Shown: piece after piece, positions 4,752-62,763 of the stretch | Numbering within the stretch: the stretch's first letter is position 1 | Layout: every line of letters starts with the position of its first letter | NCBI RefSeq assembly: GCF_029338395.1 | Contig: NZ_CP119809.1 | Location: 868,001-932,000 of the forward strand | Origin: Halorussus caseinilyticus | GTDB taxonomy: Archaea; Halobacteriota; Halobacteria; Halobacteriales; Haladaptataceae | Reading direction: 5' to 3' | DNA: 64,000 nt | Notes under the pieces: generated by a model | Told to the model about the DNA's origin: nothing | Seen by the model: only the letters and a program-made list of their open reading frames with translations | Databases searched by the model: none | Position numbers and translations under genes: made by a program

Positions 4752-4976
4752 GGCGCGCGCTGGCGCGGCTTTATGCCGCGCCATCGTCGCGCGAGGGATG
4801 AGCATCGCAGGGAGGAACGACCTGAGGGAGTGACGACCGAGACGCGCAATCGGTTGGGGAGGCGTGTGGCCCGCGGTAGCGGGGCGGGGCGGGGCGGTGC
4901 GGTATGATTGGTTCAAGCCTGTAGTTAGCTCCGATGACTCATTGACGTGTTCGAGCCTGTAGCTAGCTCCGATGAG
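4752..4976 (+). repeat. Modular intergenic repeat, copy A (full, tandem terminal cores)
   Basis: Order on the plus strand: GC-rich segment with hairpin TGGCGCGGC/GCCGCGCCA (4761-4769, 4775-4783); a CGCAGGGAGGAACGACCTGA-type stretch; TCGGTTGGGGAGGCGTG at about 4850-4866; GGGGC/GCGGT tract; core GGTTCAAGCCTGTAGTTAGC (4910-4929); and a second diverged core at about 4950-4970 followed by the same CCGATGA. It shares CGGCGCGCGCTGGCGCG with copy B. The 387-bp gap 4695-5081 contains nothing else recognisable. Confidence 0.75.
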
Positions 4977-16547: not shown

Positions 16548-16800
16548 GAGCTAACTTCAGGCTTGAACCTACGAGAGTTGTCCAGCACTGCGACCGTGAA
16601 CGGTGGAAGACGCGACGAGAGCTAACTTCAGGCTTGAACCAATGAGAACCGCAACCACAACCGCAACCGCAACCGCGACCGCAACCGCGACCGCAACCGC
16701 ACCGCGACGGCCACATCCTCCCCAACCGACTGCGTTGCTCACTTCGTTGCGCTACTCGTCCCTCGCGCGGTGAGCGCGACACGCTTACGCGGTCGCGCCC
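16548..16800 (-). repeat. Modular intergenic repeat, copy C (full, tandem terminal cores)
   Basis: Reading on the minus strand: GC-rich start with hairpin arms GCGCGAC/GTCGCGC (16774-16780 and 16792-16798 on plus), a block GAGGGACGAGTAGCGCAACG, AGTCGGTTGGGGAGG (about 16717-16731), a long GCGGTT/GCGGTC tract (16645-16713), then core GGTTCAAGCCTGAAGTTAGC (16621-16640) and an identical second core at 16550-16569, about 71 bp further on. Orientation is opposite to copies A and B. Confidence 0.8.
16645..16713. repeat. GCGGTT/GCGGTC hexamer tract
   Basis: On the plus strand about ten AACCGC or GACCGC hexamers run in a row with little variation. It is the variable-length middle part of repeat copy C, and the pattern suggests growth by replication slippage. 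Copies A, B, D and E have shorter or more degenerate GCGGT-rich tracts in the same place. Confidence 0.75.
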
Positions 16801-16815
16801 GCACGCGCCGGACCG

Positions 16816-41723: not shown

Positions 41724-42327
41724 GGTTGGTCGTCGCACGGACGCCGATAAGTGTCTTCTGTCTGAGTGTTCTGTGGCGGTGTCTTGCAAATATTTATATT
41801 TGTTAAGAATATCTAAAGAATTATTAGAGGTGTGTGAATGTGGTCGTGGCGGACGGGAGAATAGACGGCTCTTCGGTTATCACGACTGCGCAGTACCGCG
41901 GACGGCGACGACGCTAGCTTCAGGCTCGAGCCAACGAGAACCGCACCGGCTCCGCGGGCCACTATTCGAGCGAGCGAAAATATCCCGCGGAGTCACCGAA
42001 AATCTTCGATTTTCGAGATGACGAGCGCATCGTCTCGAACCACGACCGCCGGAAGACAAACCGCGTCTTCCGAGGTCACACTCGCTTTGCTCACGGTTGC
42101 ACCGTTCGCAGTCGCGGCGCTCCGCGCCGCGCACCGCTCGCGTGACCGCGAGCGGGCGGGGGCTTTCGAGACGGCCGCCCCCTCTCCGGTCCCCACCGAT
42201 ACAGCAACCAGTGACGCCGCGACACACCCCGAGTTCCCACGCACATCAACTGTGCTTGCACGAAACAAAATGAACTTTCAGCAAGGTTTCCGTAACTGTG
42301 AAAGTCAGACGGGAAGAACAAGGGAGT
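41724..42327. other. 604-bp gap with AT-rich patch, repeat fragment and hairpin
   Basis: It holds an AT-rich patch at 41785-41830 (AAATATTTATATTTGTTAAG), partial modular repeat F, and a hairpin CGAAAATC/GATTTTCG at 41997-42015. The final 60 bp lead into the methylmalonyl-CoA mutase subunit with GGGAG before its start. No credible gene was found. Confidence 0.55.
41913..41962 (-). repeat. Modular intergenic repeat, copy F (3' part only)
   Basis: On the minus strand: GGCCCGCGGAGCCGGTGCGG, TTCTCGTTGGCTCGAGCC, TGAAGCTAGC. It matches the terminal core with two changes (GGCTCGAGCC for GGTTCAAGCC) and the preceding CCGCGG...GCGGT tract. The 5' hairpin block is absent. Confidence 0.6.
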
Positions 42328-48948: not shown

Positions 48949-49469
48949 TCGTTACCCTCCGCTCGTTCGGGATGCAGTTCGTCCGCGAGGGGACTGTTCT
49001 CGTCGAACTGGACGGTGCCCTCCTCGGCGACTTCGACCTTGTACGAGGGGGCCTGCACGCGCCGCCCGTCCACTTTGACGTGTCCGTGGACGACGAACTG
49101 GCGCGCTTGGTTGGGCGTGTTGCCCAGACCCTTCCGGTAGGCGACGGTCTGGAGACGACGCTCCAGCACGTCGGTCACGTCGAGCAGAAGCACGTCGTCC
49201 AGTTCGTCGCCGTCGTCGAGGACGCCGACTCGCTGGAGGCGGGAGACGAACTCCTCGCCCTCGGTGGCCTCGGTGTCACCCTGCGCACGCTGTGCGAGGA
49301 TGTTCCGGGCCTCGCGGCGGTAGCCGCGGAGTTCGGACTGGGCCTTCCAGAGTTCCTGCTTGTTCTGGAGACCGTAGCGGTCGAGAAGACTGCTCTCCTC
49401 GGAGATGCGTTCGCCCTGATAGGGGTGGTTCGGCGTCTCGTAGAACTTGGTGTTTTCGCCGAGCGCCAT
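48945..49469 (-). CDS. rps4: Ribosomal protein S4 (uS4)
   Basis: A 174-residue protein with an S4 RNA-binding domain: [60 protein letters not shown] is the archaeal start. Overlaps rps13 by one base and rps11 by four. Confidence 0.97.
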
Positions 49470-49984
49470 TATTCTTCACCACCCTCTTCTTCTGCTTCGG
49501 CGGCCTGTTCTTCCTTGATTTCCTCGACGTTGACGCCGATGGTGCCCTCGGTACGGCCCGTCGAGCGGGTCCGCTGACCGCGCACCTTCTGACCGCGCTT
49601 GTGTCGGACGCCCTTGTACGAGTCAATCATCTTCATCCGGTTGATGTCCTGCCGACGGGTCATGTTCAGGTCGTTGCCCGTCTGGTGGGTCGTCTCTCCG
49701 GAGAAGTACTCGTTGCGGTGGTTTGCGAGCCATTCAGGGACCTCGTTGGCGAAGTTCTCGACGGCCTCGACGACGGTATCGATTTCGTCGTCGTCGAGAC
49801 GGCCGAACGTCGCCGTGCGGTCTACGCCGGTCTTGTCGGCGATGATTCGCGCCGCTCGGCGACCGATCCCGTTCAGTTCGGTCAGGGACCGTTCGACGGA
49901 CTTCGTCCCATCGAGGTCGGTTTGCCCGATGCGGACGAAGTAGCGGAGGTCCTCGTCTTCCTCCTGTGGTTCTTCCGTACTCAT
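49469..49984 (-). CDS. rps13: Ribosomal protein S13 (uS13)
   Basis: A 171-residue protein: [77 protein letters not shown], with an acidic Glu/Ala tail. ATG 49984 is preferred to the in-frame ATG at 50053, because that lies inside tRNA-Ser. First coding gene of the operon. Confidence 0.97.
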
Positions 49985-50002
49985 GGTTTGGATACTGGAA
50001 AG

Positions 50003-50087
50003 CGTCGAGGGAGGGATTTGAACCCTCGAGGCTTGACGCCACAGAGTTAGCAACCCTGCGCCGTGGGCCAGACTAGGCTACCTCGAC
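50003..50087 (-). tRNA. tRNA-Ser (GCT anticodon)
   Basis: An 85-nt type II tRNA. Acceptor GTCGAGG pairs with CCTCGAC, discriminator G at 50003, anticodon stem CAGGG/CTCTG around TTGCTAA (anticodon GCT, reads AGC/AGU), a long variable arm, and T-arm GAGGG/CCCTC with TTCAAAT. No encoded CCA. It ends 18 bp before rps13 and probably starts the operon transcript. Confidence 0.95.
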
Positions 50088-50257
50088 ACGCTTGCATTCA
50101 CTGTCGCCCTCTCGGACTCGGGACCGGACGCCCCTACAGGTTTGCAACTAATCGTACCGGCGGCGAGTATATAAATACAACGAAACGGCTTACCCGCGTG
50201 GGTTCTTCTCACCCTCCCGGTAGGTTCCCCGTAGTCGGTCCCCCGCCGGTTCTCCGA

Positions 50258-50584
50258 CTACGCGGTCCCCCAGTTCCACTCGCCTTCGTCGTCTCCCGGC
50301 TCGACCGCTTCGACGGCACCGAGGTCTTCCCACCCTTCGGACTCCCCGGCGGCGTCGGCGTGCCGGACCGACACCTCGGACCATCCGGCGTCGTACTCGG
50401 CCGACAGTTCGTAGCGGTCGGTGGTCCCGCCCTCGGGTCGGACTTCGACCCGGAGGGACTCCTCGGGCACGTAGTCGATGGGACTCGCGGGTCCCTCGAA
50501 GGTGGTCCCGTCGGCGAGTGTGACCCGAACGCGGTCGTTCGGGTCGAGTCCGCCGAGGCGTTCGACCAGTTCGGTTTCGCTCAT
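50258..50584 (-). CDS. Haloarchaeal hypothetical protein, small beta-barrel-like
   Basis: A 108-residue acidic protein: MSETELVERLGGLDPNDRVR, VTLADGTTFEGPASPIDYV, LRVEVRPEGGTTDRYELSAE and WSEVSVRHADAAGE. The strand pattern with a short N-terminal helix resembles an Sm/SH3-like barrel, but no family is recognised. ATG 50584 is used; the longer frame upstream has weak composition. Its right side is a 703-bp repeat-rich gap. Confidence 0.65.
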   Translation of the reverse strand: MSETELVERLGGLDPNDRVRVTLADGTTFEGPASPIDYVPEESLRVEVRPEGGTTDRYELSAEYDAGWSEVSVRHADAAGESEGWEDLGAVEAVEPGDDEGEWNWGTA

Positions 50585-50748
50585 GGGTCGGCCTTCATCG
50601 GAGTCGGGGTTAAGCGTGCGGGCCGGTTTCGGGACGCGTTCGGCGGTCGTGAGATTGGCACACGAATCTATGGAGCGTCCCGTTCCGACCCGTGACAGCA
50701 ACCGCCAGAAACTGCAGTGAAGCAGTCCTCGAAAGCCCGCGACCGGGC

Positions 50749-50802
50749 GACCCCTTCATCCCACCCCGTCGGTTGATTGGTCGAGCGTTTGCTGGCGGTT
50801 GG
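50749..50802 (+). repeat. Short intergenic repeat family 3, copy 2
   Basis: CCCCTTCATCCCACCCCGTC, then GGTTGATTGGTCGAGCGTTT and GCTGGCGGTTGG, matching 5587-5650. It leads directly into a hairpin and modular copy B. Confidence 0.5.
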
Positions 50803-50805
50803 TCG

Positions 50806-50835
50806 GCCACGACTGCTACGCCGACCAGTCGTGGC
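50806..50835. other. 10-bp perfect inverted repeat (hairpin)
   Basis: GCCACGACTG (50806-50815) and CAGTCGTGGC (50826-50835) with a 10-nt spacer. It lies between repeat family 3 and modular copy B. Confidence 0.65.
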
Positions 50836-50857
50836 TTCGAGACAATATAATTTTGAT

Positions 50858-51054
50858 TCCGGCGCGCGCTGGCGCGACGCGCACGAGCGCGCCGCGCCAA
50901 CCCGCGCAAGGGACGACCGAACGAGCGAAGCGAGTGAGGGAGTCGGTTGGGGAGGACGTGGCCGTCGCGGTGCTGTCGCGGTGGCGATGCCGTGCGGTGG
51001 CGGTGCTTTCGCGGTGGCGGTGCGGTCTGGTTGGTTCAAGCCTGAAGCTAGCTC
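50858..51054 (+). repeat. Modular intergenic repeat, copy B (full)
   Basis: GC-rich start CGGCGCGCGCTGGCGCG (shared exactly with copy A) with TGGCGCG/CGCGCCA pairing; a GGGACGACCGAACGAGCGAA type block; GAGTCGGTTGGGGAGGACGT (50940-50959); a GCGGTG/GCGGT tract; and core GGTTCAAGCCTGAAGCTAGC (51033-51052). It is the clearest single-core copy, about 197 bp long. Confidence 0.8.
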
Positions 51055-51168
51055 TACGACTCTCCTGCCGTTCGTCGTCGCGGTGCGGTAGCGGTACAGT
51101 GCGGTAGCGGTGCCGTCGCGGTGGCAGTGCCGTCGCGGTGCTGTTCGGTCTCTGTAACATCGCCGCCG

Positions 51169-51202
51169 TAACAGAGACAACTACACCATTCCGGGACAAT
51201 CA
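51169..51202 (-). repeat. Short intergenic repeat family 2, weak copy 3
   Basis: On the minus strand GATTGTCCCGGAATGG followed by TGTAGTTGTCTCTG. The 14-mer differs from copy 1 by one base, but the flanks match less well. Confidence 0.35.
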
Positions 51203-51287
51203 AAGACCTATACGAAGAAAACATCTACCCGCCTAAGAGAAACACGAAACTTTCGTTCACCGAACGCTCACACTCCGACTCCGACGC

Positions 51288-52274
51288 TCAGGCTTGGACG
51301 TTCCCGACGTACTCGTCGTTTATCTCCCACTCGCCGTCGTCGTCTCGCACCATGTACTCGCCGTAGTAGGGCACGCGGTTCGCCACCGTCTCGCGGAACG
51401 TCTCCCGAATCTCGTCCTTCGTCATCTCGCCCATCGACCGCAGGTCGTCGTTGCGGTTCAGACACCCCTTGAGGTATCCTTCGTGCGTGACGCGCACGCG
51501 GTGGCAGTTGGCGCAGAACTGCGGGTTCTCAACGGGGTCCACGATTTCGACCATGCCGCCCGACTCGTCCGCGGTGCCGCCCACCCAGTATCGGTTCCGG
51601 TTGTGCATCTCGCGGGTCTCCACCTCGTCGGCGATGTCGGCTAGCCAGTCGTGGACTCGCTGGATGTCGATGTTCCACTCGGGTCTGCCCGTGAGTTCGG
51701 GCATGTACTGGATGAGTTGCAACTGCAACCCCTCGTTGTCGGCGACGTGTTCGACCATCTCCTCGACGTAGCCCGCGGTGTGTTCGAAGACGACCATGTT
51801 CAACTTCACCGGGTCGAGTCCGGCGTCCACGGCGGCGTGGACGCCTTCGATAACCTTGTCGTAGGCACCGCTCTGGGTGACTTCGGCGAAGGCTTCCGGG
51901 TCGAGCGCGTCTTGGGAGACGTTGACTCGCTCCAGTCCGGCGTCAACGAGGTCCTCGGCCCGGCCGGGCAGGAACGTGCCGTTGGTCGTGAGCGACACCT
52001 CCATGCCGTCGGGCGTCCGCCGGACGATTTCTTCGAGGTCTTGGCGAAGCATGGGTTCGCCCCCCGTGAACTTGACCTTCCCCACGTCGAACTCGTGGGC
52101 GACCTCCAGAAACCGGACGACCTCGTCGGCGGTCATCTCGTCGTCTCGGGGGTCCATCGGACCGCGCGTGTCGCCCAATCCCTCGTTGTGGCAGTACACG
52201 CAGTCGAAGTTGCACCTGTCGGTGAGCGAGACTCGCACGCCCGAGACCTCGCGCCCGAAGTCGTCCTCCAGCAT
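51288..52274 (-). CDS. moaA: GTP 3',8-cyclase MoaA (molybdenum cofactor synthesis)
   Basis: A 328-residue radical SAM enzyme. The SAM cluster is Cys21, Cys25, Cys28 in [11 protein letters not shown]; the C-terminal second cluster is in [11 protein letters not shown] and [22 protein letters not shown] is the conserved GGEP. It converts GTP to the cyclic intermediate of molybdopterin. GTG at 52277 or ATG at 52274 are both possible. The gap downstream is repeat-rich. Confidence 0.95.
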
Positions 52275-52370
52275 CACTTGGAGACGTTTCGCGTGCGTAT
52301 CCTTAAATTCGCTGTCGAATCCCGACTCTGCGTAACCGTATCCGGTTACGTTCTACGCCGGGCGATAACG

Positions 52371-52610
52371 CTATTCGTCGCGGTCGCTCTCCCTCCGGTC
52401 GCCCTCCTCGTCCTCCACTATCGACGCCGTGGCGTGACTCCCGCCGACTTCCTCGATGCGGATGTCCACGCGGTCCCCGAGGTCCGCGCCGGGGACGAAC
52501 ACGACGAACGACTCGATTCGGGCGATACCGTCGCCTTCGCTCCCGAGGTCTTCGATTTCGACGGAGTAACGTTCACCGGACTCGACCGGAGCAGTCTCGC
52601 GGTCTGGCAT
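52371..52610 (-). CDS. TRAM domain protein
   Basis: A 79-residue protein that is nearly all TRAM domain: VESGERYSVEIEDLGSEGDG, IARIESFVVFVPGADLGDRV, DIRIEEVGGSHATASIV. TRAM is a beta-barrel that binds RNA; small single-domain TRAM proteins act as RNA chaperones in archaea. ATG 52610 is chosen over 52622. It is divergent from the Mrp gene. Confidence 0.9.
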   Translation of the reverse strand: MPDRETAPVESGERYSVEIEDLGSEGDGIARIESFVVFVPGADLGDRVDIRIEEVGGSHATASIVEDEEGDRRESDRDE

Positions 52611-52748
52611 GGGACCGTCCACGACCCCCCATCGGTTAAGTAATCGGTGCGTGACCGGCGCGGACCGACGCCGACCACGCCGACCGACGCCACCTGCCCG
52701 ACTCCCAAGTTGACAAGGCTTATCGACGCTTCGGACCGTAGCCCCGGT

Positions 52749-53780
52749 ATGAACGAATCAGAGGTACGCGACCTGCTCCGGGAGGTCGAAGACCCGGACC
52801 TCGGCGACGATATAGTCTCGCTGAACCTCGTCAACGACGTGTCCGTGGAGGGCGACACCGCCGACATCTCGCTCGCACTGGGCGCGCCCTACTCGCCCCA
52901 CGAGACCCAAATCGCCAACCGCGTCCGGGAAGTTCTCTCGGACCACGGCATCGAAGCCAACCTCTCGGCCCGCGTGGACGACGGCATCTCTGCCGACGAG
53001 CAGGTCCTGCCGAACGTCGAGAACATCATCGCCGTCGCCTCCGGCAAGGGCGGCGTCGGCAAGTCCACCGTCGCGGTCAACCTCGCGGCGGGACTCTCCC
53101 AGATGGGCGCGCGCGTCGGCCTGTTCGACGCCGACGTGTACGGTCCGAACGTCCCCCGGATGGTGGACGCCGAGGAAGTACCGAAAGCCACCGAGGACGA
53201 GACCATGATTCCGCCCGAGCAGTTCGGCGTGAAACTCATGAGCATGGCGTTCCTCGTCGGCGAGGACGACCCCGTTATCTGGCGCGGCCCGATGGTCCAC
53301 AAGGTCCTCACCCAACTCTGGGAGGACGTGGAGTGGGGTCACCTTGACTACATGGTCGTAGACCTCCCGCCGGGCACCGGTGACGCCCAACTCACCCTCC
53401 TCCAGAGCGTCCCGGTCACGGGCGCGGTCATCGTCACGACACCACAGGAAGTCGCCATCGACGACGCCCGCAAGGGCCTGCGGATGTTCGGCAAGCACGA
53501 CACCCCCGTCCTCGGCATCGCCGAGAACATGTCCACGTTCAAGTGCCCCGACTGCGGGTCCGAACACGACATCTTCGGGCGCGGCGGCGGCGCGAAGTTC
53601 GCCGAAGAGAACGACATGCCGTTTCTCGGCTCTATCCCCATCGACCCGACGGTCCGGACCGGCGGTGACGAGGGTAGACCCATCGTCTTGGACGACGACG
53701 ACACCGGGGACGCTTTCCGCGTCCTGACCGAGAACGTGGCGAACAACGTCGGGATTATCAGGCGACGCCAGCAACGCTGA
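52749..53780 (+). CDS. Mrp/NBP35 family iron-sulfur carrier ATPase
   Basis: A 343-residue protein. An N-terminal MIP18-like (DUF59) domain (about 1-85, SEVRDLLREVEDPDLGDDIV), then the deviant Walker A VASGKGGVGKSTVAVN (about 96-111), VDLPPGTGDAQLTL, and a CPDC motif (FKCPDCGSEHDIFG) for bridging [4Fe-4S] binding. It transfers clusters to apoproteins, useful for the many Fe-S enzymes here (Rieske, MoaA, ferredoxin oxidoreductase). Confidence 0.93.
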   Translation: MNESEVRDLLREVEDPDLGDDIVSLNLVNDVSVEGDTADISLALGAPYSPHETQIANRVREVLSDHGIEANLSARVDDGISADEQVLPNVENIIAVASGKGGVGKSTVAVNLAAGLSQMGARVGLFDADVYGPNVPRMVDAEEVPKATEDETMIPPEQFGVKLMSMAFLVGEDDPVIWRGPMVHKVLTQLWEDVEWGHLDYMVVDLPPGTGDAQLTLLQSVPVTGAVIVTTPQEVAIDDARKGLRMFGKHDTPVLGIAENMSTFKCPDCGSEHDIFGRGGGAKFAEENDMPFLGSIPIDPTVRTGGDEGRPIVLDDDDTGDAFRVLTENVANNVGIIRRRQQR

Positions 53781-62495: not shown

Positions 62496-62671
62496 GAGCT
62501 AGCTACAGGCTTGAACCTATCGAGACCGCACTGCCCCACCGCGAACCGCCGCCGCGAACCACGCCCTCCCCAACCGACTCCTTCGTTCCCTGCGGTCGCT
62601 CAGTCGTCCGCCGTCGGAAGCAAGTTCCGGCGACCTCGCGCGGATGGGCGCGGTCACGAGTGACCGCGCCC
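62496..62671 (-). repeat. Modular intergenic repeat, copy D (full)
   Basis: On the minus strand: a 12-bp perfect hairpin GGGCGCGGTCAC/GTGACCGCGCCC (62646-62657, 62660-62671), a GACTGAGCGACCGCAGGGAA type block, GAGTCGGTTGGGGAGGGCGT, a GGCGGCGGTTCGCGGTGGGG tract, and the core GGTTCAAGCCTGTAGCTAGC (62498-62517). It occupies most of the 397-bp gap 62367-62763; the rest, 62680-62740, is AT-rich. Confidence 0.8.
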
Positions 62672-62763
62672 GCGCGCCGACGTGGAACGATAAGAAATGC
62701 TCTAAGAAACATCTAGATGGTCTAAAGAAATAAAATAATTGCTGAAACGCCGTCGCGCCGTCC

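Follow-up and report, generated by a model that had tools for sequence, protein, structure and literature searches.

Short non-coding repeats with a conserved two-hairpin 5' module are dispersed across haloarchaeal genomes

What kind of element lies at positions 50858-51054 of the window, a stretch of 64,000 nucleotides from Halorussus caseinilyticus? A sequence-only reading had described this copy (the reported copy) and three others in both orientations, and had suggested a structured RNA or a non-autonomous mobile element. We read each full copy on its own strand; all four are where they had been placed, and all four have the described order of parts (Table 1). Two details of that description were incomplete. 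The copies at 4752-4976 and 16548-16800 have a duplicated 3' core, and the GGGA.GA/AACGAAG block is indeed present, but it is a hairpin rather than a plain block. The fixed blocks clearly exceed the level of shuffled DNA. The 3' core has six matches in the window (at most three mismatches) against none in 100 dinucleotide shuffles, and the linker block AGTCGGTTGGGGAGG has four (at most two mismatches) against a mean expectation of 0.34.

Table 1. Parts of the four copies in the 64-kb window, and host loci carrying the second element type
Feature	Position	Strand	Basis
Reported copy, 5' module	50861-50955	+	covariance model coordinates
Reported copy, hairpin A: nested stem GGCGCGCGC..GCGCG and variable covarying inner stem	50861-50907	+	cmsearch 79.2 bits, covariation
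Reported copy, hairpin B	50912-50944	+	sequence; family-wide ladder statistics
Reported copy, linker GGTTGGGGAGG	50945-50955	+	nearly invariant in 41 aligned copies; block search
Reported copy, variable-length GCGGT-rich tract	50956-51032	+	sequence; differs between copies
Reported copy, 3' core GGTTCAAGCCTGAAGCTAGCTC, lineage-specific type	51033-51054	+	core searches
Copy 1, 5' module (hairpins A, B, linker)	4752-4862	+	cmsearch 64.7 bits
Copy 1, two tandem 3' cores	4910-4931, 4948-4969	+	38-bp period
Copy 3, 5' module	16717-16809	-	cmsearch 84.7 bits
Copy 3, two tandem 3' cores	16619-16640, 16548-16569	-	71-bp period
Copy 4, 5' module, extra sequence between hairpins A and B	62565-62678	-	cmsearch 45.9 bits
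Copy 4, 3' core	62496-62517	-	core search
Second-type copies	L010, L066, L071, L076, L084, L085, L091, L110, L112, L113

The element is not confined to a few copies. The host genome (4.39 Mb, five contigs) contains 81 matches to the 3' core with at most two mismatches, against none for the reversed-pattern control. We oriented 93 core sites (at most three mismatches) and read them for anatomy. Full copies consist of hairpin A, GAGGGA, hairpin B, GGTTGGGGAGG, the GCGGT-rich tract, TNATNGG and the core TTCAAGCCTGAAGCTAGC. Hairpin A is laid out as GGCGCGYGC, a variable inner stem and GCGCG. The element is about 100-250 bp long, and the two hairpins take up about 95 nt. In some copies further hairpins are inserted between A and B. 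Cassettes of the type TCGTCGGCGCTGTGCGCCGACTGCTCGGCAGACC.. recur in this position at L062, L079, L107 and L073; a similar cassette sits within hairpin A of L159, as if hairpins were swapped as units. In a second element type the double hairpin is replaced by CCACGGGACGCGC-hairpin-GCGGGGAGG, and the tract and the core are the same; this 5' end is repeated in tandem in several copies. A minority core, GGAGTCGGCAGTAGCTAGC, also occurs in the host genome.

All 93 core sites lie outside genes, as called by a simple codon-usage gene model, and the examined copies have no coding capacity, in agreement with the earlier description. The neighbouring genes are found in every orientation (29 ++, 23 -+, 20 +-, 20 --, one site without a call). 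Therefore the element does not act as leader or trailer of the genes beside it, and cis-regulation of this kind is ruled out by the lack of orientation preference. The copies are evenly spread along the chromosome with a median gap of 28 kb, and their strands form no pattern along it (runs z = -0.22).

The copies belong to a haloarchaea-wide family of short non-coding dispersed repeats, a spread beyond what could be seen from the window. The query of the DNA search was window positions 49000-53000. The 5' module is repeated in every Halorussus genome searched, and several of these lack the TTCAAGCC core. Named relatives with this core are H. ruber YC25 and H. aquaticus; Halorussus genomes without it have a different core in a similar place, e.g. 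TCTCATAGGTACCGGGAGTAGCTAGC. The 3' core differs between lineages, and the conserved signature of the family lies in the 5' module instead, which runs from hairpin A through GCGAGGGA to hairpin B and GGYTGGGGAGG.

The covariance model R1 was constructed from 41 copies and has 92 positions and 14 pairs. At E <= 1e-5 it matches 69 of 146 Halobacteriales genomes and 27 of 57 genera, with E-values that are rough because of a short calibration, so that the weakest genomes, with E near 1e-6, may be matched by chance. Twelve genomes re-searched one by one gave matches at 1e-11 to 1e-17. Among the matches listed, no more than 29 per genome, 30 of the 69 R1-positive genomes have at least 20 each. The sample of 120 genomes from the phylum contains ten R1-matching genomes, all from Halobacteriales, and no matches outside this order. 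Matches were also found in named plasmid records of Halorussus, Haloarcula, Natrinema and Haladaptatus. The copies checked in H. halophilus, N. thermotolerans and Haladaptatus salinisoli lie between annotated genes. No sign of phage carriage was found: the records of the phage collection gave no match, nor did viral contigs searched with an exact two-block pattern.

The family is apparently undescribed, consistent with the earlier remark that no named haloarchaeal family has this architecture. Rfam 15 yielded no family above the gathering threshold and only a chance-level microRNA match. Searches of the open-licence literature turned up no description of the family or of the linker sequence, although subscription journals could hold one, and the term 'halo' is absent from the text of the RepRanger REP survey.

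The 5' module is conserved in 27 genera while its stems change in a compensating fashion, and its plus strand folds into two hairpins. Among 32 copies from outside Halorussus, 12 of the 14 pairs of hairpin A have changes on both sides, 96.8% of cells are paired compared to 17-59% with the partners slid, and the covariation score is 0.480 compared to 0.159 after shuffling, all in an alignment that was fitted to the model and thus leans towards structure. An independent MAFFT alignment retains double changes at seven of the 14 pairs; paralogues inheriting one change could account for a part of the covariation. The stem mismatches are strand-specific: in both alignments together G.T is observed 63 times and A.C six times, and the sense strand is more stable than the antisense strand in 114 of 125 cases. 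The excess of G.T over A.C means that the plus strand folds as a single strand, as such mismatches are not expected from a duplex or a cruciform. It follows from the covariation that some factor recognises the single strand in its folded form. Thus the earlier suggestion that the element is structured has gained strong support.

Hairpin B is built differently. Outward from the loop, two Watson-Crick pairs followed by two G.A pairs occur three times. In the reported copy (GAC GA CC GA AC GA GC [GAA] GC GA GT GA GG GA GTC) this gives a perfect ladder, in which Watson-Crick doublets alternate with tandem G.A pairs up to a C-GAA-G triloop cap. The ladder is asymmetric, with GA and never TC. Of 122 copies, 94 have a C-GNA-G loop, against 24 in shuffles, with A, G, C or T at the N position, and C-GNRA-G tetraloops are depleted (8 against 24 shuffled). 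The doublet test was limited to 57 hairpins, picked because their ladder starts exactly; in these, doublets 1, 2 and 3 are fully complementary in 95, 79 and 53% of cases, compared to 35, 22 and 13% after permutation. When run on the plain MAFFT alignment, RNAalifold recovers hairpin A only, because the length of hairpin B varies and G.A pairs are not scored; for this reason hairpin B was analysed outward from its triloop.

GNA loops closed by at least two G-C pairs form extraordinarily stable DNA mini-hairpins, with a Tm of 78 C for d(GCGAAGC) (PMC4686876). The d(C-GNA-G) mini-hairpins of Hirao and co-workers, as cited there, have the same cap as hairpin B; in that account they are synthetic oligonucleotides, whereas here the motif is natural and sits atop tandem G.A ladders. 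By analogy, the likeness leans towards single-stranded DNA as the folded molecule. RNA too tolerates tandem G.A pairs and uses G.U, and thus the folded molecule may be RNA instead. With a regular G.A ladder and a GNA triloop occurring naturally in many genera, it becomes directly testable whether secondary structure of single-stranded DNA is selected for in a genome.

Orthologous sites differ between genomes in whether they contain the element. Where the reported copy lies, H. ruber (G015) and G011 also have an element, oriented alike, and H. aquaticus (G003), G007, G014, G016 and others have a short gap without it. For the 62.5-kb copy, the alignments of G004 and G011 run through the element, and an R1 match falls in the gap of G002; the gaps of other genomes are about 200-300 bp compared to about 400 bp in the host. 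Neither a target duplication nor an empty site resolved to the base was seen; the intergenic DNA of other species is too diverged for exact junctions. Inverted pairs are also observed, with six head-to-head pairs in G019 (L234-L238, L214) having spacers of about 41-44 bp, and tail-to-tail pairs in several genomes (L154, L161, L169, L241, L242).

The 3' flank has features of its own. Downstream of the core the strand is pyrimidine-rich (85% in the first six bases). Tandem duplications scoring at least 20 were found in the non-coding DNA immediately downstream in 17 of 77 cases, compared to one of 73 element-free gaps (p = 6e-5), and in two of 54 upstream flanks. At L022, L016, L080, L107, L112 and other loci, tandem duplications 20-50 bp in size lie directly against the element's 3' end. 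In further copies, e.g. L002, L004, L005 and L111, the core itself is tandemly repeated. The repeats are places where tandem duplication recurs, which is one way in which genomes of Halorussus change.

We tentatively prefer, with a probability of roughly 0.45, to regard the element as a REP-like non-autonomous repeat that is read as a folded single strand, probably of DNA, and spread by a putative trans-acting enzyme. When the region becomes single-stranded, on the lagging strand or during repair or transfer, the hairpins would fold as DNA. They may then be bound or nicked by a putative single-strand-processing protein, encoded by the host or borne by an element, that would also recognise the lineage-specific 3' core. 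Copies would be made by this protein in trans, as for REPs, and the adjacent DNA could be duplicated when processing at the 3' end is aborted or repeated. We infer mobility and function in this scheme. Non-autonomous mobility, as suggested from the window, is plausible given the copy number, the presence and absence at orthologous sites and the lack of coding capacity, yet unproven, since no base-resolution empty site, target duplication or mobilising enzyme was found. The copies are diverged, so that present-day activity is unproven as well. The lack of chromosomal orientation bias counts against this preferred reading, as such a bias might be expected for lagging-strand transposition.

Candidate movers were considered in turn. 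Mobilisation by Y1 or RAYT enzymes is rejected, as the host genome has no Y1 (HUH) transposase genes (Pfam PF01797), and over 146 genomes such genes are found in 37 of 69 with the family and 40 of 77 without it (p = 0.87). No match to reverse transcriptase (PF00078, RVT_1) was found in the host genome, and thus retro-element or SINE-like reverse transcription was set aside. The ends of the eight clear host TnpB loci do not match the element, and IS605/TnpB ends were set aside as unrelated. No replication-strand orientation bias was found. Although GGTTCAAGCC looks like a tRNA T-arm, this likeness was dropped because other lineages carry unrelated cores.

The main alternative, less probable but possible, is a structured non-coding RNA or RNA module present in multiple copies. 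The plus strand of each copy would be transcribed, either by itself or through read-through, and the two hairpins would serve to bind a protein or a partner RNA. It would account for the strand-specific folding with G.T far above A.C, for the strong covariation and for the frequency of G.U, about 9%, in the outer stem outside Halorussus. However, there is no AT peak at -30 to -21 in 54 copies of the host and 28 of other genomes, and therefore no promoter of its own was seen. The neighbours in all four orientations, the absence of an Rfam match, and the depletion of GNRA tetraloops with enrichment of DNA-type GNA triloops also argue against it, and dozens of diverged copies with presence and absence at orthologous sites are unusual for an RNA gene. 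Of the structured RNA proposed earlier, the structure has thus been upheld, whereas neither a promoter signature nor a fixed relation to genes was seen.

It is rather unlikely that the element is a chromosomal protein-binding site of the nucleoid, gyrase or segregation type, passively multiplied, with the hairpins as the recognition element, as proposed for bacterial BIMEs. Even chromosomal spread, intergenic and orientation-neutral placement and inverted pairs would fit such a site. On the other hand, a site read as a double helix would not be expected to have the strand asymmetry of the ladder and of the mismatches, the family is missing from about half of haloarchaeal genomes, and the 3' core is not conserved between lineages.

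Still less probable is a PATE, that is, an IS200/IS605-type element that has degenerated and is moved by the TnpA of such transposons. The published profile (PMC3119063) fits, as the element is non-coding, heterogeneous and high in copy number, has a hairpin near one end and lacks terminal inverted repeats, but the host TnpB loci have non-matching ends, and Y1 TnpA is absent from the host and not associated with the family across the order. Finally, chance similarity in GC-skewed low-complexity intergenic DNA, which would suit the freely varying low-complexity GCGGT tract, is refuted by the absence of matches in shuffles and reversed-pattern controls, by compensatory changes across genera and by the lack of model matches outside the order.

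The element shares several features with bacterial REP, BIME and REPIN sequences with their RAYTs (Nunvar et al. 2010, PMC2817692): these are short, extragenic, present in dozens to hundreds per genome, have a GC-rich hairpin kept by complementary mutations, and form inverted pairs and clusters. As for the REP head GT(A/G)G, GTGG is found at hairpin A in 18 of 30 non-Halorussus copies, and CCGG or TCGG in most Halorussus copies. Unlike REPs, the present element is longer, its second hairpin is a G.A ladder, and it has a separate lineage-specific 3' core; unlike in REP/RAYT systems, the host genome has no RAYT/Y1, and across the order the family is not associated with one. With haloarchaeal PATEs (Dyall-Smith et al. 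2011, PMC3119063) it shares non-coding sequence, high copy number, heterogeneity and palindromes near the end; it too has no terminal inverted repeats and is too short for a transposase. However, its ends are unlike those of the resident IS605-type (TnpB) elements, and in the copies read two hairpins occur at one end only. Haloarchaeal MITEs and SMRs (PMC3119063) are likewise short non-coding dispersed elements, but have terminal inverted repeats, whereas the ends CGGCGCGCGC.. and ..AGCTAGC of the present element are not inverted repeats.

The best explanation is thus an element that is REP-like in its working, yet outside REP/RAYT, PATE and MITE by the tests made, with no Y1 association, host reverse transcriptase, matching TnpB end, AT-rich promoter signature or strand pattern found. 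Bacterial REP-type repeats are well studied, and none of the present anatomy occurs in the sources searched. A broader proposal, which we consider doubtful, is that the family represents a class-wide archaeal counterpart of REP/RAYT independent of Y1, in which a putative haloarchaeal enzyme that processes single-stranded DNA would recognise the conserved fold, have seeded thousands of copies across Halobacteria and drive adjacent tandem duplication. Identification of the recognising factor would uncover either a mobilisation system not seen before or an abundant, likewise new RNA or DNA-binding partner.

Two further observations concern the host genome. A second dispersed repeat, CGGGCGACCCCTTCATCCCACCCCGTCGGTTG.., lies at window positions 50736-50808, just upstream of the reported copy; numerous sites in H. 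ruber (G015) and one further site in the host genome are about 90% identical to it. A unit that looks related to this repeat, GGGACTGAAAGGGGC ... GGGGCTTTC, is frequently found directly behind the 5' module in genera other than Halorussus. The 427-kb contig C2 is probably a circular replicon with an untrimmed overlap, because two features recur on it at the identical offset of 383,291 bases: an element at 2101-2229 and 385392-385520, and TnpB at 41953 and 425244 (L174, L175, L183, L184). The two C2 copies of this one element differ by TA within GCTAGC.
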